Positions 16,378-42,714 of a stretch of 64,000 bases of DNA are shown one piece after another; position 1 is the first letter of the stretch, and each line of letters begins with the position of its first letter. The position numbers were made by a program, and so were the translations under genes. This DNA comes from Turbatrix aceti (lineage: Eukaryota > Nematoda > Chromadorea > Rhabditida > Panagrolaimidae): NCBI GenBank assembly GCA_963969345.1, contig OZ017769.1, forward strand, positions 10,667,725 through 10,731,724, read 5' to 3'. Below the pieces are notes generated by a model. That model saw only the letters and a list, made by a program, of their open reading frames with translations, had not been told where the DNA came from and did no database searches.

Positions 16378-17729
16378 ATGCTTTTTCGTATGCCAGGTTT
16401 TCCTGTGTTAGCTGCGGCTTTTTCTGTTGTGTTCTTTTTGGGGGCTTTGACTCCTCTGGTTCCCGCTCCGTCAGTGGCACCCCAACAAACATCTTACAAC
16501 GAAAATGAAGCCAGAATGCTGCTCGTGCTGGCGGCTGCTGCGTACGGAAATGCTTCGATGACTGATTCGGCTGCGTTGGCGTGTATTCAGAAGTACGGTA
16601 GTTTTTGGGACCGTAATGAAAAAAATATCTTGGAGTTCACGAATAAATCTGCACGCAACGTGCAAATTTTTGCAAAATGCTGCGTGCAGCATGAAAACTT
16701 TTTTTACGGCGCGCAACCTGCGAATTTTACACTCATACAAACTTAACCCTTTTTTTATTTCCAATATGCACATTGCTGGAAAATTTGTCCCATAAAAATA
16801 CCTTTCAGTAACTTTGGAAACTCAGCATCCAGTTTCCAACTTGTAAATTCGTCGACTGTGCACTGCGATCTGCTCGGCAACACTTGTGCAGCATTCGCCC
16901 TCATCAATGTTGCCGAACAAAGAATTTACATTGTCTTCAGAGGTACCAAAACGTGGTCACAGCTTGCCATTGAGGGGTGGGACAGCTTGCAACCTGGTGT
17001 CAATTTCTATGGAGTGGGAAAAGCCAATGAATATTTTTCAAATGGAATGGAAAAATTGTGGCCGACCGTTTCACCTATTCTTTCGGATCCCAATTATCAG
17101 GTTAATTTTTTAAATCTCTGTTTTACAAAAAATCGATATGAAAAAAATTCCAGAACTTCCCGGTAACCTTCACCGGCCATTCTCTCGGCGCCGCAATGTC
17201 CTCTCTCGCCGCGTTAAAAACAGCCGTAACCAACCTCCGCCAGGGAAGACAAATCCGTCTCGTCAACTTTGGGCAACCCCGTGTCGGCAATATCGACCTC
17301 GCCAACGTCCACAACCAACTCATCCCCCAGAGCTACCGCGTCGTTCACAGCATCGACATCGTCCCTCACCTCCCGGAATGCGGAAAGCTTCACAACATGA
17401 CAAATGCCAACGGCAGCCGTCCGTGTAATTCAACAAACACAAAATTAAGCTATCACCACGGCATCGAGATCTGGTACCCGACTCACATGTATTCGAGTTC
17501 GCAGTTTATCGAATGTCTGGGATGGCCGTTTGGAGAGGATTTTTCGTGTTCAGATTCGCTGACGTTTGACGCTCTCAAGTACGAGCTATACTTTTATGCA
17601 CACAGGCATTATTTTGAAATTGAAGTACCGATTTTCGGCGAAACAAGTTGCAGTGGTCAACAGAAAAACAACAATGGAAATATGGAAGATGCTGTCGAAA
17701 CTCAGTATGACAATTCGGGTGAATATTGA
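16378..17729 (+). CDS. Secreted class 3 (fungal-type) lipase
   Basis: Predicted to hydrolyse lipid esters outside the cell or in the gut lumen. Exons 16378-16592, 16809-17100 and 17154-17729 join in frame (intron 1 donor GTACGG). A signal peptide starts at MLFRMPGFPVLAAAFSVVFF. The nucleophile elbow GHSLGAAMSSLAAL carries the catalytic serine, after IYIVFRGTKTWSQ, the oxyanion-region motif of lipase_3 proteins. Downstream are RLVNFGQPRVGN, HSIDIVPHLP with the probable catalytic aspartate, and YHHGIEIWYP with the probable histidine, so the triad is complete. Nematodes carry many such lipases. An in-frame ATG at 16390 is an alternative start. Confidence 0.92.
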
Positions 17730-22424: not shown

Positions 22425-24093
22425 TCAGTTGCTTTTCTTTTCCGCCAACGCCTTATTCTTATTCTTATCCATCTTCTTCGCATACGCCGTTGTCAGAATG
22501 TACTCAGAATAGTTAACCAGCTGCGACAACTCCCCCCTGAAGAAGGCAAGTATAAGCGGGGTCAGAAGACAGCACGGCACGATGTAGAGGAGCGCCGGCT
22601 GGGCAGCCCGATAGACATAACAGAACACGTTGGCCAAAACGAGTCCGACCATGTACGCCACAAGAGTCGTCACAAAGTAGTAACGCGGCTTCTGCTGATC
22701 CTTGCTCTGGACGAATATGTGGTTGTCGAAGCGATAGAGAAGAGCGAGGTAAATTCCAGGAACAATGATATCTCCAAGTCCAAGGCAGCCATGTTTGTCC
22801 GCGTTAAACCCGCCGTTGAGCAGAAAGTCGTAAGGCACCATCAGCAGGCCATGGGGTGCATCCGTGCTGAGGGCCACGGTGACCATGACATCCGTGCAGA
22901 AGACCCAGAAGATGTCGTACAAAAAGAGACCAACCAAAAGGATAGATCCTGCTTTGAAACTGACGAGATGTATAATTTCAATGATGTAAATGGAATATAA
23001 AACATAAACGATGTTGTTCGTAATCCAGTTGTGATGGTAGTGATGCCAGTAGCTAAGTGAAAAACATAAAATAAGTGCGATAATGGATACGCCATCGACT
23101 TTAATAAACCATGCCTAAAAAAATTATATTTTTTTAATTGTGTAGTCGCAGATCCAAAACAAGAAAAAGTAATATTTACAAAAACGACAAAAAATTTCTT
23201 CCTAAATACAACAAAATGAAAAATAATATAATAACACCAACAAATGGTGCTCTCAAAAAACAGCACTTAGCCTGCAACTCCAAAATTAACCGAATGGCAA
23301 CTTATTATCCGCAAACACACACTATTAAAATTATGATACATACATAACATAACAAAAAAGCGTTCAAAAACAGTTACTCTCAAAAACAGAGCCCTATTTT
23401 AAAACAAATTTTGAATACTTGAAAAAGAAATTTTTAATCGAACGTTATGTGTAAAAAAATAAAACATACGCGCTTACGGCCAGAACCTTCTTTTTCCGTT
23501 TCATTGTTCCTGCGGTTGATATTAAAGCAGTATGACTTGCCAAGACTCGGCCAGTAATTTTCGATGTGAAGACGCTCGAAAACAGCCAAGGTTATTAAAC
23601 CTGAAAAAAAATATTTGATTTGTTTGCAAGTCACTTCAAAACAATTGTCCTTACTTTCGACCGTGACAAAATAACGGAGAAAGCTAAAGATGTTTTTCAT
23701 CCTATTGACCAGCTTGGTTCCACTGTCCAATGCCCGATCGACGCCTGAAAGCAAGTTTTCTGGAATCTGGGAAAAAGCATGCTGGTGTACGACTTCGTTA
23801 ATTTTGTTGCTCCGTATACAAATGTAGAATCCAAAGAGAGCAATACTGAAAAGCACAGGCAGGCAAACGGCCAGTTTCGTCTGAATCGATATCATGAGAT
23901 GATTTTTCTTCGTTTGGAGGCGCTTCAACGACGAATGCGAACGAATGCCGCCCAGAATGATGCACACAAGTGCCATAGCGACCAGTGAAGCAAAAGCGAT
24001 GACTGGACCCTCGACATTTGAGTTGACGGTAGCGGTGTCATTCTGAACCGGATGAACAATAGGGGACTGCGTTGAGGGAACGGATTCCGTCAT
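22425..24093 (-). CDS. Signal peptide peptidase (intramembrane aspartyl protease)
   Basis: Cleaves signal peptides and tail segments inside the ER membrane. Exons 24093-23655, 23600-23470 and 23114-22425 join in frame. All three family signatures are present in order: the YD motif (LFLYDIFWVF), GLGD (GCLGLGDIIVPGIYLA) and PAL (AQPALLYIVP), so both catalytic aspartates are intact. Several hydrophobic segments flank them. The extreme C-terminus AEKKSN fits a KKXX ER-retrieval signal, which distinguishes SPP (HM13) from the endosomal SPPL proteins. An unpaired acceptor TTTTTCAG 9 bases before the ATG suggests spliced-leader trans-splicing. The N-terminal segment before the first membrane span is longer than usual and divergent. 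Confidence 0.95.
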
Positions 24094-25234: not shown

Positions 25235-27922
25235 TCAAGCTCCCAAAGTCTGAAGTTTAGTGGGATAAGACACCGTAAGAGTAACGTGGGGTACGAGGTC
25301 GTCGCTCGTAAAAACCTTTTCTATGGTCGGTCTGGATTGGGCAGGGAGATCGAAAGGCAGACGAAAATCTATGCTCTTGACAGGCGTAAATCGAAAATCC
25401 ACAACCTTCAGGAAGCATTTAACAAAAATCATGAGCAATTGTTGATCGCGTTCAAAATTGGGCGAAGACGGGTTGGACGCGAGAAGGTGTACGATATCGC
25501 TGACCACGGTCCAGCCACGTTCGCCTTGCTTGGCGAGGGCGTCGAAGCCTAGGACTACGGAAGCGGGAGGCTTGACGCCTGCAGCTACCGGGACCATTGC
25601 GTAATCTGAAAGATATTCAAAATAAAAATAATTGTAATAAAAAAAATTACTGTCAGGGACGTAGACTAAATCGTAGAAGTCGACTCTTCTCTGGTAGATA
25701 CAAGCCCGATCGTCGATGAATTCCATGACCAAATCAGCGGTCCAAGAACTTCGGTCCAGATCCAGCGAGCATTCTGCCACGCTGATGGATTCGTCTTCAT
25801 CATCGTCAGTCACAGATGGCGGCGCCGAACTCGATGGCTTGGGAGATTCTATTCTCATCAACTTGTTTACACTTTTCAAAGCGACTTTCTTGCGGATGGA
25901 GTCAACTTTTTTTGAACGTTGCGACGACTTTTCAAACGTGATATAACCCAACGTACTGATGTGCATTTTTCTATACTCAACGACGTGGGGAGAAGTGACA
26001 AAGGGAACGACGTCAAGGGAATGAGAAGCCATGAAGGGTGGTGTGCCATCGTAGACTGTGTAGAGCTGGAATACAAAAAATAGAGGTGGAATTCATGCAT
26101 TCCCCAAAACAAAAAATAGCGTTTTTAAATTTTAGTGCTAAGAAATTTAATGAAGCAATGCAATAGTGTTCGAAAATTGTTACACTGCACAAATGACACC
26201 ATAAAAATTAAAAATGTTATCTAATTTTTGGTTGTAAAACTATAAGTAACATAACAGCGCCTAAAAGTGTTACTCCATTCTAACCTGCAATTGCAAACGT
26301 AACAAATTGCATCAAAAAACTGTTATTCACTAAAAAATCACCTAGAAAAGTAATAAAATAATGTCAAAAAGCGTCAAAACTTGCTATCCGTCAAAAAAGT
26401 AAAAACTAAAGCAACAACCAAAAAATAATAATTTTTTCACATTGAAACCCCTTTTAATGAACCTACCGTTGTCAACTCATCGGCGTGGTCCGGGATTTCG
26501 TTGGTGGTGGGAAGCGGTGTTCCGAGGGCAATAAAAGTATTCTTAATGTACCCAGTTTCAGCCCTCCTCGATATAGAAAATTGTGAAGAAAAATCGTGAA
26601 TATCAATAACAGGAGTCGAATCGCTGACAGTTTTCTTCAGAATACAGTGCTGCTTGTACTGTCCACCGGAAGAAAGAATATCGTAAACCAATCGTTCTTC
26701 CAGAACCTCAACGGGTATTTGGAAGGATCGTTTGAGTCGACCGATATTAATGGTGTCAAGTGACTTTTGCGTCGACTTGATGATCTGCACGATGATAAAC
26801 TGAGGCCTGACAGCTCTTATCGTGGTGTACAGCCTGTCGACTGATGTCGAAGTTGGAAATTGTCCCGACACGAGTCTGTACTTTTCCTCGGACCACTCAA
26901 GCACGCAGTGATTGACTTTACGATCGAGGGATGAGACGACGACCACCTTGGCCGGGGGGCGGAGCACGTCGAAGCCACACATGTTGACGGCGTGGATGAG
27001 TCGCGCGTAGAGGCCGGAAATAAGGACGACATTCTGCGTTCGGTCACGCGCACTCGCTAGTGCAGTACTGATGTACTCGAATTCCAACTGGTCGCCGAGC
27101 ACGATGACAAACGCGGCCAGAATGTTGCTAGCATTGATTTTTTTGTAAAGTTGGGTCAAGTTGTCGTTAAATATGGAGAAATTTCGCAAGTCTAAAAATT
27201 AGGAAAAAAATTAATTTAAAAAAATTGTTAAAAAATAAGTCACTTTCATAAATGATACCAAAAACAGAATCCTTCAAAGTAATAAAATATCAAGAAAATA
27301 CATTACGTCAGTTTAGCCTGAAACACCGAAAGTAATAAAATAGCGAACAAAACAGGTACTCGATTCTAGCCTGCAGTTACAAAAGTAATAAAATAAGAGC
27401 AAAAAGTGTTACTTCCTATTAGCCTGCACCCCAAAAAGTAACATAATAACGTAAAATAAATGTTATGCATTAAACAGAGCACCCAAAAAGTAATACAATA
27501 GCGCTCAAAACACACATGTGTGTTGTGAATAAAGTTTTTTAAAATGTAACCAAATAATTCATTCCAAGTAAATCCAAGTGATAAAACAGTAACCAAAATT
27601 TATTTTGCTGCGATAAGAGCAGCGTTCTCGGGTACCCGAAAATTCAGATAACCTGACCCAAAACCCAGTTAATTCCCGACAATATCATATTAATCCAAAA
27701 GCACCCATAACCATTATATTCAAAATAAAAACCGCCAATAGAACAATCCAGGTCCCGCTTTTCAAACCCCTCTGTTCTTATCGATCTTGAATTTAAAAAA
27801 TTCTTACCGATATTTCCAATAACCTTGTTCAACCCTTGACTCGACGTCTGTTTGGTGTCAATGTTGTAAAGCGTGATTCTGTTGTACGGGAGAACGTACG
27901 TGACGCTGTACCTCTTGATCAT
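25235..27922 (-). CDS. Divergent Hsp70-like protein A (lobe II, SBD-beta, then second lobe I)
   Basis: Exons 27922-27808, 27191-26467, 26065-25651 and 25605-25235 join in frame. Module 1 has a short N-terminal hairpin (YVLPYNRITLYNI). It continues with AFVIVLGDQLEFEYIST, aligning with Hsp70 NAVVTVPAYFNDSQRQ, then NVVLISGLYARLIHAV (NVLRIINEPTAAAIAY), and RRAETGYIKNTFIALGTPLP near the SBD-beta. Exon 3 contains VEYRKMHISTLGYITFEK, corresponding to the SBD-beta FDIDANGILNVSA. The same exon then starts a new lobe I: LVMEFIDDRACIYQRR in place of VGIDLGTTYSCVGV, followed by YAMVPVAAGVKPPASVVLGF. It ends just after a second VPAYF-like segment (SIDFRLPFDLPAQSRPTIEK). DLGTT and GGGTFD are lost, so ATPase activity is unlikely. 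No lid domain. Confidence 0.7.
26135..26410. repeat. 53-bp palindromic repeat array (intron of gene A)
   Basis: Degenerate tandem units of the dispersed repeat with AGTAACATAACAGCGCC, GTGTTACTCC and TAACCTGCAA. Fits the family seen in many introns of this window. Confidence 0.6.
27236..27600. repeat. 53-bp palindromic repeat array (first intron of gene A)
   Basis: Six or so units with AGCCTGCA, AAAGTAACATAATAACG and GTTACTTCC. The stretch of about 27310-27510 is an almost exact reverse complement of 31620-31800, on the other side of gene B. Confidence 0.8.
27620..27690. mobile_element. Degenerate hAT-type MITE
   Basis: CAGCGTTCTCGGGTACCCGA, followed by ACCTGACCCAAAACCC and CCCGACAATA, is a decayed relative of the CAGTGTTGTCGGG element at 8425. 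Target duplication not recognisable. Confidence 0.5.
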
Positions 27923-28141
27923 CCTTCATACGGCAATAGATGCTGTGAATTCAATAACGCAGTCAATACATGCAGTAAGTTAGAATTGGATAACCGCCAA
28001 AGCTTAGGAACAAAAGACTATGGACGAAAAACGTAAGAAAACTATAAACAAACATCCACCAGTTGGCGAACCCAAAGCATTTTTACAACGCGAAGAATTG
28101 CGTGCTCTTGACCGGAAAAAAAGCGGTCGTAAAATTTGGCA

Positions 28142-28697
28142 TGTCGCATCCTACCGAACGCGAGCTCTATCGCGCCCCTCGCTCGACCGTTCACACCCTC
28201 TCCGAGCTCGTTAGGCGCCCTATCGAGTGGGAAAGCTGCCTTATCTCGCCTCCAAATTTGAATACACAATTACCGGGATGGCTCTTTCCCTCTCTGGATT
28301 GGTCTGTCTCCTCCCCCTGATTGTGTGTCCATAAAGGGTCAGTCTTCGACTGACCGTTCTGTTCGTTTGAGATTGAGTTTGAGTTTACAAGTCAGTTGTT
28401 GTTGTTGCTACCATCGAATAAACTTGTGTGGTCAACTCTCAACTCGCTCCATCGCTTCGGCCTACAGCGGGTTAGGCGAAGCAATTCAATCATCCCTCGT
28501 CGACGGCAAGGCCTTTGAGCTACCCACCTCGAGGAAGCGTAGGCTCCCTGAACGGAAGAGCCCGTGAGCCATCGTTCATTGAAGCCGTCCATCGCTCCCG
28601 GCCTCAGAGTCGACCGGTGAAGCATTCATCCGTCCGGCAGCGTCTAAGCACCGCGCCGTCATCTTCTCCTGTCCAGTAGCCGGTCGGCGCTGCGACA
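28142..28697 (+). mobile_element. Candidate solo LTR
   Basis: A gene-free block that begins TGTCGCA and ends TGCGACA, the inverted TG...CA ends of retroviral-type LTRs. Its composition differs from the surroundings (more GC). A TATA-like CATAAAG lies near 28331 and an AATAAA about 28418, in the order expected for promoter and polyadenylation signal. The adjacent bases do not give a clear 4-6 bp target duplication, and no primer-binding site or gag/pol frame is present. Orientation rests on the TATA-AATAAA order. Confidence 0.4.
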
Positions 28698-28795
28698 ACC
28701 GTTTGTTTTAAATAATTTATTTTACCACGTTTCAAAAAAGTTCAACAATACAACATGTGTAACTTGGCAAAAAGACAGTGTGTTGGCATCTGGCG

Positions 28796-31345
28796 TTAAT
28801 CATGGTAGACCGTACCAAACTTGAAGTCGACGTTTTCGATGACTTGTCGGAAGCGTTCATCGTAGTTGGAATCGATGTCGCGGGGTAGATGGATGCCGAG
28901 GTTGTCGTTGAGGGGATCGAAAAAGCAAAACCCCTGGGAATGGAGTGGCCTCATGATGAAGCCTATAAAAGCCGAAAGCGCAGCCTGGGCACGAGCGATT
29001 TCGGGCAGAGTGTCGGACTTGACGACGGCATGAACGAGATCGGATTGGCAGGTGTCAGGTGAGTCGAGGGCATCAAACCCGACGAGAACTTCCTTCTGAT
29101 TGCCCTGGGGGAAGGCGATCGCCGTCGGAATCCACGCGTAGTCTAAAAATTTTTTATCAAAAAAAATATTTTTAGTGCAAAAAAATGGTTAAACTCACTA
29201 TCAGGCACGAAAACAGGATCGTAAGTATTGTGGGAATTTCGGAAGTATATACATGCCCGATCCTTGCCAAACTCAATGACAGCCTTCTCACGCCAGCAAT
29301 TACGTGGACCATTCATGTCGAGTCCAACGAGATCGTCGACAATGGAATCACCGGCGTCGACGAAAGGAGCAGACTGAAGACTCGTTACAGAAGATTCGAT
29401 CGATGGGATGCCGAATTCGTCGATGGCAAGCCAGTAAGATGTCTCCGATGCGTCGAGATCACCGACGAACAAGTTGTTGGCAACGAGGCCGGGTTTCTTG
29501 TAAACCGGGTGGAGAATAATAAACGCCCCGTATTCAATCTGAAACAAACCGATATCAGTCAACTAAGTTGCGAGAAAAAAACAGTGTTTGGAAATATCGG
29601 TGGAAAAAATGCTGGAAAAAGTATCGATAAAAAAATAGCTACAAACAAGCATTCGAACTCCTGCAGCGAAAAATGACTCAGGGAAATGAATGCTTTCTTG
29701 AGTTTGAAAAAAGCGCATTGAAAAACGTAAAACGCGTCATGAAAGTAATAACTACAATTAAAATACTATAACGACAAAAAATTGTCAATCACTCAAAAAA
29801 CCGCGCCTAAATAGTCACAAAATAAGAGCAAAAAAAATTACTCAATTTTAGTCACAAAGTAACAAAATAGCGACGCTCAAATAAATATAGTACGGAAAAT
29901 ATAATTTAAATAAGAAAAAACGTAACAAATTAGGGTCCAAAATTTGTAACTTACAAAAAAAACGTATTTTATAAAACAATGTTCTGGCATAACATTTCTT
30001 TTATAAAATATCTTTAAAAAACCCACTCTTACAGTACAGTGGCTATCCTTGAGCCCGTTTGTGTCAATCGGTATCCGCAGGGGAAGTGGTTCACCGAGTT
30101 CAATCAGTAGCTTATTGTCTCCAAGTTGTTGTTCATTGACGACGATGAATTTCGTAGAAAATAGATCAATTTCAAATGGAGATCGTTCAAAGACGTTTTT
30201 CACCTTGATTGCCAGGCCCTGGAGTAGAACAGTTGACAGATCCTTCACCAGCGGATTGTTGGCAAGTGAACAGTGATTTTTCATGGCCGTGAGAAATTCG
30301 TGGAATTCTTTACGCGTGGCTTCGACAGATTCAATGATGACTTCGTCAAAGGCAGCACCGCTACGCGCAAACTTTGTGACAAGTCGGTCAATATCTTTCG
30401 TGTACATTCCGTTTGGCATAAAACCTTGTGTTAATTTGTAGCCAGTTTGATGCCTGAAACGATGCAAAAAAATGCACATAAAAAACATGAGAAATGTTGG
30501 TTACCCTTTACAGCGAAAGAAAACCACTTCATCGAAAGTTATAAAACAGAAGTCAAAAAACATTATTCACCAAAAACAGCGCTATGAAAAGTAACACAAT
30601 AGCGCCGAAGAAACGTTACTCTCAAAAAACCGTGCGTAAAACGTAACAAAATAACGACAAAAATTATTACTCCGTTTCGGCCTGCTCTACCAAAAGTAAC
30701 AAAATAACGAAAAATTATGTTACTTCACTTCAGCCTGCAACCCCAAAAGTAATAATATAGCGTTCAAAAACGTTGTTTTTCAAATACAGCGCCTCAAACG
30801 AAAGATTACAGTGTAAATTCAACGTCACATCTACTTTATTTAATAGTAAAAAGAGTATAATCACAAACCTTTCCAGAATATAGTAATCCGCGCAGTAAGT
30901 GGCAGAAAGCATGAGTATGAGAACCCGATTAGGCAAAATTCCTTCACAGAAGTAGTGTTGAGCGGCAGTGTAGAGAGCATGAGTCAGACGAATGTAAATC
31001 GAACTGACAACCGTAACATTAGGCGTAAACGTTCGGGCCAACCTGACAACTCTCGTGATCACGGAAAGTGGAAATTGTTCGCCGACCACCAAGACAAAGC
31101 ATTCAACTGGCTTCGTGATTTTGTTGAACAATGCTAACACTTTTTTGAATTGCTCGGGATTTTCCAAATCTGAAATAAAAAAACATCAAACTTTCTTAAT
31201 TTTCACGAAACTCACCAAGTCGATCGCGTACGCCAGCAACATTTTCCTTGGTGAAACGTCGTTCGTCGATGTCGTAAACGATCAGGGTGGGATATGGCAT
31301 AACCCATCCAACGCCACATCCATCTCGGAGATCAGAAAAACTCAT
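28796..31345 (-). CDS. Divergent Hsp70-like protein B
   Basis: Exons 31345-31216, 31169-30869, 30453-30033, 29538-29200 and 29142-28796 join in frame with the intron phases of gene A. The N-terminus is MSFSDLRDGCGVGWVMPYPT. Module 1 includes ECFVLVVGEQFPLSVITR and PNVTVVSSIYIRLTHALYT (the Hsp70 IINEPTAAA region), then a lobe II-like portion and LLIELGEPLPLRI near the SBD-beta. SYWLAIDEFGIPSIESS replaces the SBD-beta FDIDANGILNVSA motif. The same exon opens a second lobe I with AVIEFGKDRACIYFRN, then YAWIPTAIAFPQGNQKEVLV. It closes with DNLGIHLPRDIDSNYDERFR at the VPAYF segment. ATPase signatures are lost. Function unknown. Confidence 0.7.
29700..29880. repeat. 53-bp repeat array (intron of gene B)
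   Basis: Degenerate units with AGTCACAAAATAAGAGC and AAGTAACAAAATAGCGACG inside the third intron. Confidence 0.6.
30530..30790. repeat. 53-bp repeat array (intron of gene B)
   Basis: Four to five units, for example CGGCCTGCTCTACC, AAAGTAACAAAATAACG and GTTACTTCACTTCAGCCTG. Confidence 0.75.
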
Positions 31346-31599
31346 GGAAGTGATGGAAGAAAACGTCTGCCTGGAAGAATGTATTTAGACCGGTAAATGA
31401 CGCTGATAGATAAATCGCAAACTCGAAACACGAACAAACAAAAGCAATAAAAAAAGAATGCTGGAAAACGACGAGGAAATGCGTGAAAATCTTTTCAGTT
31501 TATTCATCAACTATGTACTTGACAAATGATAATGTTGTTGTTGATAGAATACTCCCAAGACGAAGAATTTGTCGCGTGCGCACTTGTTATAATCAACAC

Positions 31600-31805
31600 T
31601 GCTTGTTGGGAGTAACATTTTTTTGAGCGCTATTGTATTACTTTTTGGGTGCTCTGTTTAATGCATAACATTTATTTTACGTTATTATGTTACTTTTTGG
31701 GGTGCAGGCTAATAGGAAGTAACACTTTTTGCTCTTATTTTATTACTTTTGTAACTGCAGGCTAGAATCGAGTACCTGTTTTGTTCGCTATTTTATTACA
31801 ATTCA
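31600..31805. repeat. 53-bp repeat array, inverted copy of 27310-27510
   Basis: Units in the opposite orientation (CTATTGTATTACTTTTTGGG, TGCAGGCTAATAGG). This is an almost exact reverse complement of the array in gene A's first intron, so gene B is bracketed by long inverted repeats about 4.1 kb apart. It lies just past the stop of gene C and before gene B's start. Confidence 0.8.
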
Positions 31806-31848
31806 GGTGTTTTTTTTAAATAACTTTTGTCGAAAGTTATTTTGTTAA

Positions 31849-33233
31849 TTATTTTTTAGGAGGATTTTTGGTTAATTGCATGAATCCGTTGGCGTCGATG
31901 TGGAAGTAATCGTAATCAGCGCCGACGTTTGTAGCGAGAAAACTTTGATACGAGGATTTGAATCCGGTACCCACGTGGCCAGTGCTGACGATTTCGTCAC
32001 CGTATTTGATCTGAAAGAAATCGATCGCGCAAAAACAGTGCCATTGAAAAATTGTTTTTAAAAAACTCACATGAATGGAACCACCTGCCGACTGACGTTT
32101 CATGGGATTTAGTGGTACCGTGATAGGCAATTTTGTACCGAATTTGATGACTTCTTTAAAAATACGAACATCACTGGCATCGCATACGATCCACTGATTT
32201 GAAAAATTTGCGATATCAAGTTTTTCAAATCTAGGATCTCCGACCAAAGCCATGCCCTTGAATTTTGCGCCATCGCCGAGGATATCACAGTAGTTGCGCT
32301 TAACTTGTTGTACTTGAAGGTTTCCATCGTAGTATGACGATATTTCTTTAAAAACTACGTTGAAGAGCTTATCGGATCTCGAAATGCCCTGAATGATGAC
32401 CATATCAGGAACGACATTGTCATGCAGTTCTCGAAATTTTGCCATGGGTTTCGCGTCACAGATGAAGCTTTCGACGAGTCGGTAACGCATTCCGTCGTGT
32501 CGGAGGTAAAAGACATCGACGCCAATGTCGTCCTCGAAGACAGAGGTTACGATGACGTGTTTTGGGATGTTGAACGACCCGTGGAGATCGATCTGCTCGC
32601 GGCCGTATTCACCCATCGCGTGCATGAGCCGGGCCTCGGCGTTGTTGATGACGCGGACATTCGGAGTCAGTTCGAGGGCCTTGCGGCAGGTCAGGTTGAT
32701 GTAGTCGAAGGGGACGTGCTCTGCGACGACAATATTCAGCATCTCGACAGTCAGCTGTTCACGGATCAGCCCGAACACTTTCGTGATCCCATTTCGGAAG
32801 GATTCGATGGAGGTAAGGTCTGAAATTGGCGGTTTTAGCCGATTTGTTGGAAAAAGTATTTAGAATTAGAATTTTTTGAAATGCTACAGCGTCAAAAAAT
32901 CGTAACTCTTTTAAAAAAGAGCGCTTGGTAGAACCACAGCGCCTGAAAAGTAACAAAACAGCTAAAAAAAGCAGTTACACCCTTATGGCCTGCAACTCGA
33001 AAAGTTATAAAATAACATCAGAAAGTGTTACTTCCTTATTAGCCTGTACCACAAACATCATCTAAAAGTCACTAAGCCCAGGAAAATTTTATAAAATAAT
33101 TTTTGAAAAAGAACTCACCGATCTTATTCGGCCCCTTGAGCCACTGTGAACTCGGCTTTTTCGTCGGAATGCAGTAAAAAACAATCTTGTTGTAAGGCAA
33201 TACATACGACAAAATATAGCTCGGTGAAGTCAT
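31849..33233 (-). CDS. Divergent Hsp70-like protein C (lacks second lobe I)
   Basis: Exons 33233-33119, 32819-32071 and 32010-31849. The protein starts MTSPSYILSYVLPYNKIVFY. VAEHVPFDYINLTCRKALEL corresponds to VPAYFNDSQRQATKDAG, and NVRVINNAEARLMHAMGEYG to NVLRIINEPTAAAIAYGL. PDMVIIQGISRSDKLFNVV corresponds to the second phosphate-binding region (IVLVGGSTRIPKIQ). DYDYFHIDANGFMQLTKN is a clear SBD-beta motif. The protein then stops at PPKK, where the paralogues continue into a linker and second lobe I, so C is the shortest member. Part of exon 2 is identical to gene D. DLGTT and GGGTFD are absent; no ATPase is predicted. Confidence 0.75.
32465..32775. repeat. Tract identical to 35284-35594 (gene conversion)
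   Basis: 311 bases of exon 2 of gene C match gene D with no visible difference, while exon 2 beyond the tract differs at many positions. The next mismatches follow at 32776 and shortly after. Confidence 0.8.
32930..33065. repeat. 53-bp repeat array (intron of gene C)
   Basis: Two to three units: AAAGTAACAAAACAGC, GTTACACCCTTATGGCCTGC, TTACTTCCTTATTAGCCTG. Confidence 0.7.
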
Positions 33234-33689
33234 TGTGGCTAGTGCAAACACAGAAAAAAATGAATGACAAAAAACACCGATAAGCAATCAGTTTCACATG
33301 TCGTCGGGTAAATATTGTCTATGTCGACAGTATGTCGATAGCTACAGGGTGTTATCACCCCGCCAGCTATCCCCATGATGATTTTCCGTCCCGTCGAAAA
33401 AAATGAATCCGATTTTTTTCAATTTATGAACAATAACAAAAACAAAAAAACGAAACAACAATTCATATGTGCGAAAGTGTTATCATAGTGTTAACATAGT
33501 GTGCTGTAGTATACGATAAATATATAAGGTAACTAAGGTTAATAAAAAGTTCAAAATAGTAATCTCATAGTATGTAACTCACGAACAGCCCCGTTCGTGA
33601 AATTGTTGTTAATTAAAAACTTGGTAAGTGGTGGTTTGACCACATTCGATCAATGCTTCCATATTGTGTTAAACAAAAAAACGCTAAAC

Positions 33690-35945
33690 TCAGGCAGACG
33701 CGCTGTAGATGTGCGACATGATGCCGCATCGCTGGAGCGCAGTGGAGATGTTGTTGGTGACGATCGGCGTGATCTCGTTGCCGGACAGCTGGATGTCGAG
33801 GGTGTCAGTGCTCCGGTCGAACACCCTCGGCCCGACGGACTGCAGAATCACGTTGTCGATGAACGCCGCGAGATAGGCAATATTTTCGACCTCCGAGAGG
33901 TGCTGCACCGTGATGGCACCGATATATCGCATGGGAGCTTTGAGCGCAGCTTCGCCGACGATGAAGGATCCCGAGAGACGGAAGGCCAGGGCAATTGGGA
34001 TGGTTGTGGTGTCTGGAAAAGTTGGAAGGTGGTGAAAAATCTGAGAAATGAGAAAATTTTATAAACTTACTTCCAGGCAAGACAGACTCCTTGTATCCAT
34101 CTGAAGTCTTGTGGAAGACAGTGAGGCAATCCAGACCGAAGCTGAAAACCAGTTTGGAGTTCCAGGTGCTTGGCACAGCATGATTGTCCGGGGTCGATCT
34201 TTCAGCCGAAGCCGAACTTCCGGGAGTTCGGGTGCCATCGCTTCCGCATCCACCATGTAATAAAGGGTCGTTGAACGCCACCGGAGAACGAGCAACACGT
34301 AAACCAGACAGCAAATCTGAGAGCGACTGATTTGATCCGAGTGATTCGTGACCATTGACGCGCGTTGGCATCGCTTTGAGGAGAGTTGATTCCATGGAGG
34401 TTGAGTTCGTCGTCGATGACAGACCGCTGAGAGATCGGGTTTCGTAGGGCACGAGAGGACGGTTCACGCCTGGATGCCTGATTGCATGGTATTCTGGGGG
34501 TGTTGTGCGAGTCGGAACGCGTGCGGGTGCGACGGGGTAATCCACTGGTACATTCTTGGTGAATTTCATGAAACCGTTGATATCGATGTGGAAGTAGTCG
34601 TAGGCAGCGCCGACATCAGTAGCCAAAAAACAGTTGCCAGAGGTTTTGAATCCAGGGCCGAGGTAGCCATTTCCGACGATTTCGCGGCCGTATTCGATCT
34701 AAAATACAGTTTTTTGTTTTAATTCAAAAATGGCGTTCTGTTTAAAAGTGATAAAATAGCAAGCAAAAAATTTTACTCGCATGCGCTAGCAAAAGCTGAA
34801 CGAGACAATGTAGTACACTGTGCAATTAGCCTACACTACGAAAAGTAAAAACGATTAAAATAGATTTTTACGATTAATAAAAAACTCACATTGATAGCAC
34901 CCCTTTGCGCCTGCCGTTTCTTAGCGAGAAGCGGAATCGTAATCGGCAAGCCTTGACCGAATTTGACAATGATGTTACAATTCTGAACGTCACTTGAGTC
35001 GCATACCAACCACTCGTTTGAAAAGTTCACAATATCGAGTTTCTCGAATTTGGGGTCTCCAATCATAGCCATGCCCTTGAATTTTGCGCCGTCGATGAGA
35101 ATGTCGCAATAATTGCGCTTCATCTGCTGCACCTTGAGATTGCCCTTGTAGTACGATGAGATCTCGGTGAAGGCGACACCGAAGAGCTTTTCCGACCTCG
35201 ACAGGTGCTGAATGATGACCATGTCAGGTGCGACGTTGTCGTGGAGCTCGCGGAACTTGACAAACGGTTTCGGGTGGCAGATGTAGCTTTCGACGAGTCG
35301 GTAACGCATTCCGTCGTGTCGGAGGTAAAAGACATCGACGCCAATGTCGTCCTCGAAGACAGAGGTTACGATGACGTGTTTTGGGATGTTGAACGACCCG
35401 TGGAGATCGATCTGCTCGCGGCCGTATTCACCCATCGCGTGCATGAGCCGGGCCTCGGCGTTGTTGATGACGCGGACATTCGGAGTCAGTTCGAGGGCCT
35501 TGCGGCAGGTCAGGTTGATGTAGTCGAAGGGGACGTGCTCTGCGACGACAATATTCAGCATCTCGACAGTCAGCTGTTCACGGATCAGCCCGAAAACTTT
35601 CGTGATTCCATTTCGGAAGGATTCGATGGAGGTAAGGTCTGAAGTTGGCGGTTTTTAAAAATCGATTTTTTAGAAAAAAGTATATTTAGAATTTTTTATA
35701 ATGGTACAGCGTCAAAAAATAGTTACTTTTAAAAATGAACGCAAATAAAAGTAATTAAAAGTGTTTGAAAGATGTTACTTTCAATCCCCTTCTCTGAACT
35801 TTATAAAATAAATTTTGAAAAGGAACTCACCGATCTTATTCGGCCCATTGAGCCACTGTGAACTCGGCTTTTTCGTCGGTATGCAGTAAAAAACAATCTT
35901 GTTGTACGGCAATACATACGACAAAACATAGCTCGGTGGAGCCAT
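33690..35945 (-). CDS. Divergent Hsp70-like protein D
   Basis: Exons 35945-35831, 35638-34890, 34698-34071 and 34012-33690 join in frame. Module 1 matches protein C through the SBD-beta (YDYFHIDINGFMKFTKN). A serine- and proline-rich linker of about 110 residues follows. On the same exon comes a second lobe I: KLVFSFGLDCLTVFHKTSDG in place of the DLGTTYSCV hairpin, then TIPIALAFRLSGSFIVGEAA, corresponding to RTTPSYVAFTDGERLVGDAA. It ends soon after TDTLDIQLSGNEITPIVTNN at the VPAYF-like segment. Because lobe II, SBD-beta and second lobe I are read continuously across one exon, the permuted order is not a gene-model artefact. No ATP-binding signatures. Confidence 0.75.
34735..34860. repeat. 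53-bp repeat remnants (intron of gene D)
   Basis: Degenerate units with AAAAGTGATAAAATAGC and TTAGCCTACACTACGAAAAG. Further remnants lie at 35700-35790 in the first intron. Confidence 0.5.
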
Positions 35946-36602
35946 TGTGGTCAGTACAACAAGGAAGAAGAAAAATAAAGCAGAATTGAGTCTAGACAGA
36001 GACGAATCGGTTGGCAAACCAGATCGAGGATGGCAGTAAATGAGAAATGGCGTACGATTTTCGAGTTCCTTTTTCGTGGACAATTGTGGAGGCGGGATGC
36101 AGAGGTCAGGTCAATTTGACATTGCAACAAGGAAAAGATGAACGACGCACAACGGCGCTTGGGAGAGCCAGTTGGGCATCGGAATTGTTTTCACACCTCG
36201 CTTAAATTTGTGGACGAGCGCGGACGCGAGGAAAGAGGAAAAACTCGCGCAAGTTGTTTGTCTTGGAACGATTTTTTATCTTCACAAGAAAAATTGGAGG
36301 GAAATGACGGTGCTCGATGTCGTCGTTTTTGTCCGGCAAGCGTTTTCGGTATATTGTTCACCAAAAGTGTCGTTTATCGACTGCTTTATCACAGGGTGTG
36401 ATGTCGAATAGGACACCACCACACCTGGAAAAGTGGCCGGTGACTGCAGTCATCATGGCCTCGGGTGTTTATATAGAGGGCGTGGCGTGTTGGTTCTTCG
36501 CGTCTATTATGTCCCTGCAGTTGCACCTGCGGTTGAAGGCTGACGACGGCTTATAAAATCAAATAAAGTAAAAAGCAATCGATATCTTCTTTTTTTAGAA
36601 TC
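35946..36602. promoter_or_regulatory. Divergent region between Hsp70-like genes D and E, with TATA box
   Basis: 657 bases between two head-to-head ATGs. TATAAAA at 36552-36558 lies about 45 bases before the ATG of gene E, followed by an unpaired acceptor TTTTTTTAG four bases before that ATG. Short frames inside have no coding character. Confidence 0.5.
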
Positions 36603-38894
36603 ATGTCGGCTTCGACGGGACCGATACACACCACGACCACTGATTATTCCTCGGAACACTCTCTGGCCTTGGGACACGTCGTTGGTTCGGGCTTCACCTT
36701 TATTGGACATACTCACAATTATGATAAGAAGTTAATCGGAAAAAACGGTGAGTATTGCAGGGGAAAAATATGAATACATCAAAATTGATGTTTTTTTGAA
36801 AACAGATCGGCTAATATGAAGTAACACCTTCTTTCCTATTATATTACTTTTCATTTTGCAGGCTAAAAGGAAATAACGGTTTTTTTCGCTATTTGGTTAC
36901 TTTTTGGGATTAGAAATTTTTTTGAACGCTATGATATTGCTTTTGTAGGCGCTATTTTTGGAATGTAACATTTTAAATTTTTTGTTCATTTGCAGTCTGA
37001 TAATGATTTTTTTCAGAAGAGTATGATCGCCGAAGAGAAGTCGCTGTTCTACATCAGTTCTTCGCGCTTCACACTGACATTTTTCCTCGGATTTCTCGCT
37101 TTACCTATGTGGTTAACAAAGATTCTGCGCATCTGACAAGAATTCTGACCACCCGGGGTGCAGGGGTTTCTTGGGCATCTTCATCTTCGCCCCGACCGCC
37201 CACCGTCGATGTCATCAGCTATGAGCGTGCTGCTATGGTCGCCGTTCTCAACGAACTCTACAACTTGCGTAAACCTGGCTTCAACATCGGCAATTTCCGT
37301 CGCATGACCGGTATCTTGTGTCTTTCAAATTTTGTTCATGTTTTCGGCTTTGTCAACACGAGTTCCCGCATCCCAGGTGATCTTGAGGAGGTCGAAGCCA
37401 TCGCCATTCAGTCCATCGATGGTCCTACGCTTTCCAAGATCAATATCCAGGATTTTGTCATGCAAAGCCACGAACCAGAAGCCATATTCTTCGGCGGCTT
37501 GGAGACTGACCACATCAAAGACCTGCATCGACAGTTTGCCGACGCCGGCTTGAACGTCCGACTCAAAGTTGCTCCTCGGCATCAGCGCGAGAATCGTCTG
37601 TTGTGCACTGGAGCCTACCTGAACAGTCTCGCTGACCTGCGACAACGGACTAACCCAGATGGTGAGCGATGCTTTCCGGTGCGGTTTAACAATGCTTCGT
37701 GCCTGACTGTTGATGAACTCGTCAAAAGATTTTCGAAGCAGGAGAAAGAGTGAGTTTTGTTTTATTTTAAAAAAATTTTACTATTGTATTATTTTATGGG
37801 TACCGTCGCTCTTTTTGGTGCATAACATTATTTTACGCTATGTTGTTACTTTTTGTGATGCGGGCTAATAGAAAGTAATACTTTTTGTTGCTATTTTATT
37901 ACTTTTGGAGTTGCGGACTAGAATGGAGTACCTGTTTTTTTCGCTATTTTGTTACTTTTGCTGCTTTTAATGGCATAACTTATGTTTATAAACAAAAATT
38001 TTGCAAAAAATCCACTTTTTTAGATCCGTGAACAACTCTGATGCTGACAGTGATATGACTGTTCCAACTTCGAGCGATGTCGTGGATGAAAACGATTTAC
38101 TTGATATCCAAGTTGATCCGTCATCGGATATCCCAGATGAAGGAACTGTTTTGGTTAACGCGGACAAGAATGACAACCCTGAAAACTTGCCTAGTCTGCA
38201 TCCGTCGGTGGAAGAACCAGAGTCTCGTGCTGCTCCGGTTCCACCGAGCGTTGCTCCTGCCTGGGCAAACGCCAATTTTATCCTGGATTTTACTGTTCAA
38301 CTGGGTTTATACTGTCGGCTGAGCTTTGTCGAATCATATTTCCAGAGTGCACCTTCCGTGGCCGAGAGTTCGTTTTTTTTTGCAAAATGGCATTATGAGT
38401 ATATAAAAGATTTTAGACAGCATCATCATCCCCGTCCTTGTCTCGTTCGCGATTCCGTTGAGGCCGGTGGCCGGCAAACGAGCCCTGCCCGATTTTCAGA
38501 GTCACCATGGTCGAGCGTTTGTCTTGTACGGTAAGTGCTGTATTTTTTGTCAAAATTTGTAATATTGTTGGGGTCATTTTCAGACCTTCTCGACACCCTC
38601 GGCAAGCCTTTTGACAAGATTCAGCCCCGAAATGACAGGACTTTTGCGGTGACTCCGGGACGTTCGCCGGACGCAGAAGCCTACATGGAATTTGGCATGC
38701 CGGAGAATCGTATGCGGGTTTTTCCTTCTGTCGCATTTTTCATCTTTCTTCGGGCCATGCGGCAGCAAGCCGAATTCTACTTTGGACATTACGTCAGTGC
38801 CGTGCACATGATCTTTCCGGATTTTGTCGACGAAAGCCAACGCCAGAAAATCCACGAATGCTGCAAGAAACTTTCACTCACGGGATATTTTTGA
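36603..38894 (+). CDS. Divergent Hsp70-like protein E (lobe II, acidic linker, second lobe I)
   Basis: Exons 36603-36747, 37017-37749, 38024-38367, 38417-38530 and 38584-38894 join in frame (one donor is GTTCGT). Module 1: VDVISYERAAMVAVLNEL (IINEPTAAAIAYGL region), FVHVFGFVNTSSRIP near GGGTFDVSI, and EAIFFGGLETDHIKDLHRQF with LLCTGAYLNSLA, matching IVLVGGSTRIPKIQ...AYGAAVQAA. SBD-beta is not evident; an acidic linker follows. Module 2 is the best-preserved lobe I of the family: SIIIPVLVSFAIPLRPVAGK, RVFPSVAFFIFLRAMRQQAE (FPEEVSSMVLTKMKEIAE) and SAVHMIFPDFVDESQRQKIH (NAVVTVPAYFNDSQRQATK). It then stops at LSLTGYF, exactly where lobe II should begin. Most divergent of the five; opposite strand. 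Confidence 0.75.
36790..36990. repeat. 53-bp repeat array (first intron of gene E)
   Basis: Units reading TGCAGGCTAAAAGGAAATAAC and CTATTATATTACTTTTCATT, opposite in orientation to those in genes A-D when viewed on plus, but the same relative to transcription. Confidence 0.65.
37790..37980. repeat. 53-bp repeat array (second intron of gene E)
   Basis: Units with CTATTTTATTACTTTTGG, TTGCGGACTAGAATGGAG and GCGGGCTAATAGAAAGTAA. Similar in unit order to 31600-31805. Confidence 0.7.
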
Positions 38895-39513
38895 TCCATG
38901 TTTTTTTCTTTTTCAATTGTTGTTTTTTTATTGTTTGCACTAATGTGAGTTATAATAATTCTTTTTCTGGAAATGTGTTGTCAGTTGAAAAGCAAAGTTT
39001 GCGATGACCCGAACCAGAAAATTTTTTATTCTTTTTTGTTTTATAAATGGTTTTAAAAAAAAGTGTTTCGTCGAATTCCAAGCATTAGTAACACAATCTG
39101 TAAAAAAATGGCGGGAAACTTGTAGCAGTATACTTTTGTCTTCTCCGTTGTTAATTGCTGCACCTTACAAGTATACTTGTAAGGCATTTTCGCACTCGGA
39201 TGCGTCTTGCTAAATGTTCCCAAAAAAATTAAATTGCGATGAGTAGACAAACAGTACGGCCTGGGTCACAGCCTAAAAGGTATGTTCCCACGTCGGCGCG
39301 ATCGCCGATTTTTTTGAATGGCAAATTGCAAATGCATCGTAATAAGGTTGACATGTGCGGTACACATAATAGTAAAGCTGTCGTATGGGGGAATGACTAG
39401 TAAATACAACATAACAATGTTTTTAAATGCAGAGTAGTTTAAGTATGTATGCACACAAAATACAGAGTAGTTTAAGTATGTATGCACACAAAATTTTGGT
39501 TTTTTGTACCGGT
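38895..39513. other. Intergenic region with a short perfect palindrome
   Basis: No gene seen. A palindrome CTTACAAGTATACTTGTAAG lies at about 39164-39183. A 28-base direct repeat (with TTTAAGTATGTATGCACAC) is near 39430-39495. Confidence 0.5.
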
Positions 39514-39826
39514 TTAGTGTTCGTGCTCACGCTCTTCTTCCAAACGGTGAATGTCATCGTGAGTTTCTATGGCACAAAGACAGTGAAAAAATTTTTGAAC
39601 ACGACAGATGATGGGGCGGAGCTGGTAAAATGAACGAACTGAGGATGTATGGTATCTGCGAGGAACTTTCTAGAATATTGAAAAAAAATTACATATAACG
39701 GTTTTGAGAGAAACGTACCCTGGAAACATCGATGACGTTTTCCATCAGGCTTTCCGGAGGAGATTTCGAAGGATGTAGATGTTTGTAGATTTCCTGATAC
39801 TGTCCACAGTAGAGTTGGTGAGTCAT
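39514..39826 (-). CDS. Small uncharacterised protein (88 aa class), paralogue of the gene at 41.4 kb
   Basis: Two exons, 39826-39719 and 39669-39514, join in frame. The protein begins MTHQLYCGQYQEIYKHLHP and ends IHRLEEEREHEH. The second exon aligns with the neighbour at 41401-41769 along SVRSFYQLRPIICRVQKFF and the closing DIHRLEEE block, with the same intron position. No signal peptide, membrane span or known domain is recognised. Conservation of frame between the two copies supports it being a real gene. Confidence 0.55.
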
Positions 39827-41400
39827 TGCATTAAACTGAAAATTTTTAAAATTATAAAGTCAAATTCATTTTTTTGTTTTTAAGCTGAAATAACGCTGGT
39901 CGGATGTTTTCAATAGTACGCGATTTCAAAAGCAAGAGACAATCAGGTGATCTTCATAGGGACGCACAAAAAACCTTTGGCGATATAGCGTTAAAAAAAG
40001 GTTATCAAATAATTTTTTTTATCACAGTAATTTTTAATACAAACAAGAGTCATTCGATTTCAAAAAATGTCCCGCACTCGAAGGTGGGGCACAAAAGGGC
40101 AAATTTGTGTCCCACATGCGATTGCGGGTTCTGTTTTAACGCAGAGAGCAGGGTGGCAAGAATACTCGTTTCGGCAATATTTGACATGACTAACCGCAAG
40201 TAAAATTTTAGAAAGATTTGACAATATTCGTCTAAGAAAATTTGTAAAAATGCGTTTTTCTGATTGCCTCAAATTTTTTCACACATAAATGTTATGTATC
40301 GCAACAAGAATTCGAAATTACGATTTCGATATACGTTTTATCCACAAAACGACGGACCCGTCTATTATTTTTCGTTAATTCGAAATCTATCACTTACGTG
40401 ACAAATCAGATGCTAAAGTTAAGGCGGTGATAGTGCACTTGACTTGAAAGAGAAATTGGGGGGTCCAAAACAACTATAGGAACACATAAATGTTGACGCA
40501 ATCAAACTAAAATTTACTGTAACTGCTTTTGCGTTTGATTGAACGGGCTTGAATTTGAGAGGGATAAAAAATTTTCACAGACAGATGCGGAGATTTTTTG
40601 ATCTTTGCAATTTTATTAAATATATAGGTGTTGATTGAATTCGCGTGTGCACTTGTCATGTAATGTTTTTTGAGTGCTATTGTATTACTTTTTGGGTGCT
40701 CTATTTGGTGCATAACATTTATTTTACGTTGTTTTGTTACTTTTGATTTTGCGGGCCAATATGAGGTAATACTTTTTTTACCTATTTTATTACATTTTAT
40801 TTTGCAGGCTAAATCGGAGTAACGGTTTTTATTGTTACTTTGTTACTTACAGGTGCTGTTTTTAGAGAGTACCGTTCTTATAATTCGGTAGTAACACTTA
40901 TCAAAGTTGTTTAAAAAAGTATTTTTACGTGATTATTATTTTCGCAAATCAAGCGCATCAGTCAAAGATATTCCAATGACTTGTCTGATTTATCTCCCTT
41001 TTCTATGAAATTGGGAGTATAGGATGCTCCTCTGTCGTGCGCATTAATGACGTCAAACGTCGAAGTTTGTCCGCACGTAAATATCGCATGCTGTCGATAA
41101 TATTCTCTCTATCATATCCGTGCTACTATAATAATTTGTACCAGTTGCATGCATCCGGTGCAACAACAACAACACATTTTCACGTGCCCTGGTGGCCCAA
41201 TTTATAATACATAAAATTCCCAATGCTCCATTTTTAAAATTTATTTACGAAATAACAGTGTCAAAAATAAATGATTGGCACGTTAAATAAAAATTCCTGC
41301 CGTTGGTAGTAGCAAGCGCACATGTTCATAAAGCCTGGAAGAAACCCGTTGTAATACTTGGCCATGTTACTGTAGATATCATGCTTTGGATGCTTTTGTG
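39827..41400. other. Intergenic region with one 53-bp repeat array
   Basis: Apart from the repeat array at 40655-40880, no gene or RNA is recognised. Reading frames such as 39904-40203 lack homology or clean splice context. Confidence 0.5.
40655..40880. repeat. 53-bp repeat array (intergenic)
   Basis: GCTATTGTATTACTTTTTGG, TGCGGGCCAATATGAGG and TGCAGGCTAAATCGGAG units. The first 100 bases resemble 31620-31720. Confidence 0.75.
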
Positions 41401-41769
41401 TCAGTGCCGATCACCAATCAGGCTATTCTGAAAAGACGGCGTGTCTTCGTATTCGTATTCTTCTTCAAGACGGTGAATGCCCTTGTCGACTTCCATGCCG
41501 AAAATGTTATCAAACATTTTGTGGACACGATTGAACACGGGCTTGATGCGAAGCTTGTAAAACGACTGAACCGAATATGTCGGAAATTTCGTGTGGACGT
41601 TCTAAAAAAATGAATCAATAGATAATAAAAATAAAAATAGTAAAAAATGAAAGGTTACCTCTCCGAGACAAAAGACATTGTCGTCTTTTAGGAGGTGTTT
41701 TGGCTGAGGTAGCTGCGTTAGGGACGGAGCCATCGGAGAGTACGCGTGGGGGTAGAGTTGGTAAGACAT
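41401..41769 (-). CDS. Small uncharacterised protein, paralogue of the gene at 39.5 kb
   Basis: Two exons, 41769-41659 and 41601-41401, join in frame. MSYQLYPHAYSPMAPSLTQL leads to SVQSFYKLRIKPVFNRVHKM and a tail with DKGIHRLEEEYEYED. The intron position and the FY-LR...RV-K-F...IHRLEEE signature match the paralogue. Function unknown; no domain recognised. Confidence 0.6.
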
Positions 41770-42714
41770 CGTAGATCTGAAATTTATTACCAATTTTCAA
41801 AATGATTACGGTGCAAAAAAATGCATGTTGGTGAGAACGCCCCCCCCCCCACGATGATACATAAATAAACGTAGCTATCATCATCGACAAATTTTTTCTG
41901 ACAGTAAAGAAAAAAGACGACCCACAGCGTAACAATTATTTTTTTGATCAAAACACGCAAAAAAAGGCCTTGCAAACTGAACGGACTGCACCCAAATATA
42001 TGACAATTATACCAGCGCCAGGTAACGTGACCCATGACTACTGCCTGTCTATATTTGTTGTCTTCCCTAAATGTTCAAACTGTGGTCACTGCGCTTGCGC
42101 ACGTCGCGCAGCGCAGCATGAACACTCCCCCGTCTTACATTAAGGAACCACCACAAAGGGTTGGGAGAACACAAATTGAGAAACTAGATTATTAATTATC
42201 TTTTTGCGTGTTTACAAACTGTCGTGAACAAAATAGTACTATTTTTGGAATGCGTTCTGTGGAGCGATGTTATTTATAAAAATAAGTATGTTCGAAGGTA
42301 ACAATCGAAAAACGCACGTAGCCATTTTTTAAGACGGAAAGGAAACAAAAAGTTTGAGGAACGTGCCAGAAGAAATTGGAAGTCAGAGACTAAATAATAT
42401 TTTAGCCTTTTCAAACGGGAATTTTCTTGATTCACGAATATTTAGCTAGCTAATGTACGAAGCTAGGGTTCAAATCTCACATGACACCAGCTGTGAGAAA
42501 AAAGTAAAAACACATGCTCCGGCAAACTCCCGCTTGCATGCACACGTGATTGCAAAAAAACAACTGCGGAAATAATATTGAATTATTCAATATTTGTCGC
42601 TTCAGGACCTAATTTCTCTGCAACAAATATTTCCAGTCATTTATTCACCGTTTTTAATCTGATATCTGATTTCGGGGAAAAGGTATCCTACGTTGGCAAC
42701 CGGAAATTCTATCA
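41770..42714. other. Intergenic region, nothing recognised
   Basis: Contains a run of ten C residues near 41842-41851 and AT-rich sequence. A GGTTCAAATC string at about 42468 looks like a tRNA T-loop, but no cloverleaf forms around it. No gene seen. Confidence 0.5.

Follow-up and report, generated by a model that had tools for sequence, protein, structure and literature searches.

Divergent genes of Turbatrix aceti with a probable origin by fusion of Hsp70 genes

The window analyzed here is a stretch of 64,000 nucleotides of the nematode Turbatrix aceti (assembly GCA_963969345.1, contig OZ017769.1, positions 10,667,725 to 10,731,724 of the forward strand), with a guanine plus cytosine (GC) content of 40.7 %. 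It lies on a contig of 11.5 Mb, referred to as C5, in a genome of 59.9 Mb and 28 contigs. Splice models place five genes, A to E, side by side at 25235-38894 of the window, of which A-D are encoded by the minus strand and E, head to head with D, by the plus strand. These genes very probably derive from Hsp70 genes and have a fused architecture. Three further members, F, G and H, were found elsewhere in the genome.

The gene family and its domain plan

Gene A (25235-27922, minus strand) encodes 541 residues in four exons (27808-27922, 26467-27191, 25651-26065 and 25235-25605) with intron phases 1, 0 and 1. Gene B (28796-31345, minus) encodes 512 residues in five exons (31216-31345, 30869-31169, 30033-30453, 29199-29538 and 28796-29142), gene C (31849-33233, minus) 341 residues in three (33119-33233, 32071-32819 and 31849-32010), and gene D (33690-35945, minus) 604 residues in four (35831-35945, 34890-35638, 34071-34698 and 33690-34012). 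Gene E (36603-38894, plus) encodes 548 residues in five exons (36603-36747, 37017-37749, 38024-38367, 38417-38530 and 38584-38894). All five spliced genes are in frame, use GT-AG introns throughout and end in a single terminal stop, in agreement with the cluster of five Hsp70-like genes proposed in an initial annotation of this DNA. The splice sites of A-H were first picked by eye, and for some of them the paralogues were consulted. When they were later rated by a simple consensus score of our own, all 31 chosen introns were the top frame-keeping GT-AG pair within 45 nt, only intron 3 of B being tied with one alternative pair of sites.

Genome searches with D, E and A as queries revealed nothing beyond the cluster. 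The B query gave a weak match (E 0.089) at 4.289 Mb of contig C5 that was read as gene F, and F in turn strongly matched G on contig C1 and H on contig C4; queries with G and H yielded no further members in the genome. F, G and H each have six exons and the full domain plan in the same order as A, B and D, and alignment of their N-terminal modules (N-modules) to those of A-D gives E 7e-9 across 262 columns. The family thus comprises at least eight members, distributed over three contigs.

Canonical Hsp70 consists of lobe I and lobe II of the nucleotide-binding domain (NBD), the beta part of the substrate-binding domain (SBD-beta) and a lid. This order is not followed in the family, where a second lobe I (the C-module) stands at the C-terminus, at the position of the lid, in seven of the eight genes. 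In A, B and D a hairpin exon is followed by the second half of subdomain IA with IIA, a linker with SBD-beta, another linker and the second lobe I. C ends with SBD-beta and lacks the second lobe I; in E, SBD-beta is missing and an acidic linker takes its place. The proposed duplication of lobe I in an unusual order in Hsp70 descendants was therefore supported, but not for C.

In D, the N-terminal NBD core of IA and IIA, without IB and IIB, spans residues 1-235 (35049-35945, minus). The NBD-SBD linker and SBD-beta follow at residues 236-337 (34552-35048), a low-complexity linker at residues 338-467 (34162-34551), where the exon is open throughout, and the second lobe I, with most of IB lost, at residues 468-604 (33693-34161). 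The corresponding lobe I covers residues 388-541 of A (25238-25744, minus) and residues 366-512 of B (28799-29295, minus), in both cases again with most of IB lost, and the C-module of B matches that of A with E 2.5e-5. In E, the N-module (residues 1-291, within 36603-38894, plus) was assigned by eye only. It is followed by the acidic linker (residues 292-374, 37745-38267), which has 19 D/E and 3 K/R among its 83 residues, and by a lobe I with IB (residues 375-548, 38268-38891). The stop of E is found 15 residues after FPDFVDESQRQ, near which the protein had been predicted to end. The linker before the second lobe I measures 61 residues in A, 36 in B and 130 in D, compared to 11-13 in F, G and H. 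Exon 3 of A, exon 4 of B and exon 3 of D are each a single open exon that carries the end of SBD-beta, the linker and the first hairpin of the second lobe I, as the initial annotation had noticed.

The first NBD lacks both IB and IIB in all eight genes, approximately 85 residues being missing at each place. This follows from spacings between anchors of our choice: 24-28 residues separate the hairpin intron from the IA strand, compared to 110 in worm Hsc70 (L005), and 27-34 residues separate the two IIA strands, compared to 117. The stripped first lobe I that had been proposed is therefore real, and lobe II is stripped as well, of IIB. The N-modules of A-D and F-H do contain a whole IA (hairpin and second half) beside IIA. 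The second lobe I was expected to be fuller than the first; IB is indeed retained there in E, F, G and H, whereas A, B and D have lost most of it, and in C there is no such lobe. The predicted loss of ATP motifs was confirmed: five patterns that we take to mark the ATP site (the DLGTT, DLGGGT, GGSTRIP, NEPTA and AKRLIG types) are present in worm Hsc70 and absent from all eight family proteins.

Codons 1-160 of C and D (coding parts of 32455-33233 and 35274-35945, minus strand) show 93-100 % nucleotide identity per 20-codon step, followed by abrupt divergence with saturated synonymous changes; they are probably a recent gene-conversion tract. Beyond it, the proportions of synonymous (pS) and nonsynonymous (pN) differences are 0.757 and 0.177 for codons 161-288, and the corresponding rates in exon 3 (51 codons) are dS 0.85 and dN 0.23. 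For the G-H pair, pS and pN are 0.527 and 0.321 in the N part and 0.592 and 0.267 in the C-module; pS also exceeds pN in both parts of the G-F and H-F pairs. These substitutions show purifying selection on both modules among the pairs tested (C-D and those of F, G and H); A, B and E cannot be tested in this way. Because synonymous changes exceed replacements, C, D, F, G and H do not appear to be dead genes. Conservation among F, G and H is highest in the IB+IA2 part of the C-module (48-54 % identity), compared to 35-51 % for IA2+IIA of the N-module, 28-44 % for the SBD-beta stretch and 26-48 % for the poorly conserved hairpin of the C-module.

Relationship to Hsp70

The gene of worm Hsc70 contains three introns, located at DQ(G)NRTTP (phase 1), IF(D)AKRLIGR (phase 1) and LIQ/VFEGE (phase 0, intron at the slash). 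In each of the seven genes that carry a C-module, this module is interrupted by a phase-1 intron at the first of these sites, for example PD(N)YAMVP in A and PG(N)TTTIPIALAF in D, compared to DQ(G)NRTTPSYVAF in Hsc70. The strand proline that follows lies at +5 in Hsc70 and likewise in A, B, D and E, but at +6 in F, G and H. The second phase-1 intron is found in exact register in E, F, G and H, the four genes that keep IB, so that E has both phase-1 introns of Hsc70 in its C-terminal lobe I. Between these two introns lies the second Hsc70 exon of 105 nt, and its counterpart measures 111 nt in F, G and H and 114 nt in E. The phase-0 intron is present in all seven genes with SBD-beta (A, B, C, D, F, G and H); in D it interrupts AIN/IEYGRE. 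A phase-1 intron also follows the hairpin of the N-module in all eight genes.

Profiles were compared (hhalign) with an alignment of 16 Hsp70 sequences, one row of which is a 107-residue fragment only. The C-modules of E, F, G and H matched it with E 2.8e-4 at best, a score reached by none of 100 column shuffles. The C-module of E alone gave E 3.9e-4 against these 16 sequences and E 3.6e-4 in another hhalign comparison with Hsp70 (0 of 100 shuffles), and the N-module profile of seven genes matched Hsp70 columns 355-472 with E 5.5e-3 (0 of 100 shuffles). Ten of the 11 top matches to the 16-sequence profile lay on the expected diagonal by our own reading, several of them with E of about 0.1 or worse. 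With an Hsp70 profile of six sequences the hhalign matches were mostly weak and partly out of register, and the N-module of E showed no significant Hsp70 profile match in hhalign and fell off the expected diagonal.

An AlphaFold model of exon 2 of D, of low confidence, retrieved Hsp70-family structures in 44 of the 50 Foldseek rows listed and in 49 of the 50 VIA rows shown; its residues 1-232 align to Hsp70 114-366, and Ssz1 and Sse1 were among the fold matches. The model of the terminal exons of A, B and D, without the first hairpin, had a predicted local distance difference test score (pLDDT) of 59.8, and no Hsp70 was among the fold matches listed for it.

Ordinary searches did not reveal the relationship. 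Pfam searches with whole A-E (E<=10) gave no match to PF00012 and a single unrelated one (C, E 0.076). F, G and H likewise had no PF00012 match at E<=10; one unrelated match was obtained for F, and in a search with the members F, G and H one unrelated match occurred, in one of the three. The C-module of E alone scored 11.8 bits against PF00012 (E 0.069), under the curated cut-off of 20.6 bits. Sequence searches of the PDB returned nothing for D and E, and for the profile of F, G and H one unrelated chain (E 1.7). In a set of 5.8 billion proteins, searched at E<=10 and without a positive control for nematode coverage, no match was found among 6338 word-sharing candidates for D, among 134 candidates for residues 380-548 of E or among the best 7996 for the F, G, H alignment. 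The literature, searched among open-licence papers, yielded no report of such an Hsp70 fusion. The profile check of the spliced products that had been suggested failed with Pfam but succeeded, with the E of 2.8e-4 given above, when profile was compared with profile. Ordinary searches came close to leaving the family without any Hsp70 hit, and it is the profiles, the structure model and the introns that rescue the relationship.

The Hsp70 origin was accepted because of the profile comparison, the mostly Hsp70 fold matches of a low-confidence model and, above all, the shared intron sites and phases. On these sites, phases and profile similarity, common descent with Hsp70 (PF00012) is indicated, and Hsp70 descent together with the fused architecture is held with high confidence. 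Canonical Hsp70/Hsc70 and the family share the types of modules, the three intron sites with their phases and, as predicted from the low-confidence model, probably the fold of the NBD core. The family differs in a first copy without IB, IIB and lid, in the second lobe I at the C-terminus and in having neither ATP-site patterns nor a Pfam call.

Neighbouring and other genomic features

A degenerate repeat with a period of 53 bp (GTAATAAAATA... / ...TTACTTTT...GCAGGCTA) occurs in both orientations at 26242-40848, in the longer introns and the intergenic spacers. Near E lie two small genes at 39567-39859 and 41400-41780, both on the minus strand, which look like paralogues by eye (MTHQLYCGQY... 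and MSYQLYPHAY...). Two related kinase-like genes at 2966-3670 (minus) and 13895-14710 (plus) match PF00069 with E 4.8e-17 and 1.4e-13; their catalytic loops, LHCNITSYN and LHCGINTSN, look like those of pseudokinases. The window also harbours genes for a class 3 lipase (17142-17726, plus), a signal peptide peptidase (22428-23114, minus) and a WD40 protein (49982-50884, plus), and a U4 spliceosomal RNA (51555-51692, plus, 105.4 bits).

Elsewhere in the genome, the region C1:4873380-4888643 contains two full-length Hsp70 matches in one open frame and, in between, two partial copies with identical scores, 2.2 kb apart. Region C6:3376694-3418638 holds a tandem array of RNAs resembling the spliced leader SL1, approximately one every 1644 bp; they score below the family cut-off, 50 of 16941 candidates having been scored. 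Cuticle-collagen N-domains gave 64 matches across the genome, which identify it as nematode DNA.

Proposed origin and function

It is proposed that two adjacent Hsp70 genes were fused in frame to give rise to the family. Copy 1 would have become the N-terminal part, with an NBD reduced to IA and IIA, the linker and SBD-beta, ending before the lid. Of copy 2 only the first third, lobe I, would have been retained, attached via a linker inside one exon. Loss of the counterpart of exon 2 from copy 1 would have kept the frame while removing the start of IB, the remainder of IB being lost from the next exon. A deletion may have brought together the final exon of one Hsp70 gene and the initial exon of the adjacent one, and such a deletion would be expected to leave SBD-beta of copy 1 and the hairpin of copy 2 in one exon. 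Since a tandem fusion would account for the domain order, a permutation is not required.

Other accounts of the genes themselves are far less probable. Loss of the catalytic motifs, strong divergence and the missing C-module of C would fit decaying pseudogenes of an Hsp70 expansion, but eight open frames, good local sites at all 31 introns and pS above pN in every tested pair make this very unlikely. If the C-terminal lobe I exons instead belonged to separate neighbouring genes with promoters of their own, unjoined to the N-module, lobe I would be at its usual first place. However, in A, B and D SBD-beta, linker and hairpin share a single open exon with no stop, even across the 130-residue linker of D, and the same order recurs in F, G and H with their short linkers, so that this possibility deserves still less credence. 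Least probable of all is convergence on Hsp70 by some other actin-like (ASKHA) family: Ppx, YeaZ, sugar kinases, ParM and PilM are among the weak fold matches, but an SBD-beta following the NBD and phase-matched introns at all three Hsc70 sites argue for Hsp70 itself.

As a whole, the statement that the genes are fused tandem Hsp70 genes turned into nucleotide-independent adaptors of the atypical Hsp70 type is considered reasonably probable, while the adaptor role taken by itself is tentative. The N-module presumably keeps an Hsp70-like fold. A nucleotide cycle is unlikely because none of the five ATP-site patterns is kept in any member. Exchange factors of known Hsp70s make their contacts with IB and IIB; the contacts of J-domains are with IIA, the linker and SBD-beta. 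The N-module would thus have lost the contacts of exchange factors and retained those of J-domains, while the C-module places a lobe I at the position of the lid; these losses and retentions suggest that the proteins may bind partners without ATP, as extreme atypical Hsp70s. The C-terminal lobe I is likely to be the main binding surface, and a J-domain protein, an exchange factor or Hsp70 may be guessed as the partner. The proteins would steer canonical Hsp70 in the way of Ssz1 or Hsp110 and would not fold clients directly. A role as decoy, adaptor or regulator, as put forward in the initial annotation, is the preferred class.

The same annotation had raised a circularly permuted or lobe-swapped NBD, in which the C-terminal lobe I packs on lobe II, either of its own chain or of a second one, to restore a cleft between two lobes. 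In E, F, G and H the IB missing from the N-module is indeed found in the C-module, whose end falls approximately at the expected start of lobe II. However, the N-module has an IA of its own beside IIA and does not need an outside lobe, a whole NBD cannot be rebuilt while IIB is absent from every copy, and the C-modules of A, B and D also lack most of IB, with no ATP-site pattern left, which makes this arrangement unlikely. An ATP-free machine, in which the bare IA and IIA core receives IB from the second lobe I in cis or from a partner chain and docks on and controls the cycle of a real Hsp70, is regarded as equally doubtful. Slightly less probable is an ATP-independent holdase whose SBD-beta binds unfolded clients, with lobe I as a spacer. 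SBD-beta is present in seven of the eight genes, but it is among the least conserved stretches in F, G and H and is missing in E.

An adaptor role would bring the family close to the atypical Hsp70s, although Ssz1, Hsp110/Sse1 and Lhs1/Grp170 keep the whole NBD, and we know of no atypical Hsp70 with a bare IA and IIA core or a second lobe I. Bacterial FtsA and PilM are actin-like proteins without a normal IB; they illustrate that this subdomain can be lost from an actin-like fold, but they are not derived from Hsp70 and keep IIB. Atypical Hsp70s are described as having a limited cycle and as acting on canonical Hsp70 or J-proteins (PMC3879978). Like the family, Ssz1, Hsp110/Sse1 and Lhs1/Grp170 evolve fast and are related to Hsp70, and a limited cycle would be a further trait in common. 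Expanded divergent Hsp70s have also been described in the nematodes Halicephalobus mephisto, with a genome GC content of 32.1 %, and Diploscapter, where their number was taken from matches to the Pfam Hsp70 domain (PMC6872716). From what was available of this source, they resemble the family as a nematode lineage expansion of divergent Hsp70s but, unlike it, are detected by Pfam, and neither a fusion nor a lost subdomain is mentioned in these parts (PMC6872716).

Pfam-based surveys can overlook a whole Hsp70-derived family, as PF00012 is called in none of the eight genes. If the proposed origin is true, an Hsp70 NBD can shed both IB and IIB and yet stay under selection, and tandem Hsp70 genes can merge into proteins with two copies of lobe I. 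The family would be a natural test of which surfaces of Hsp70 count after the loss of ATP.
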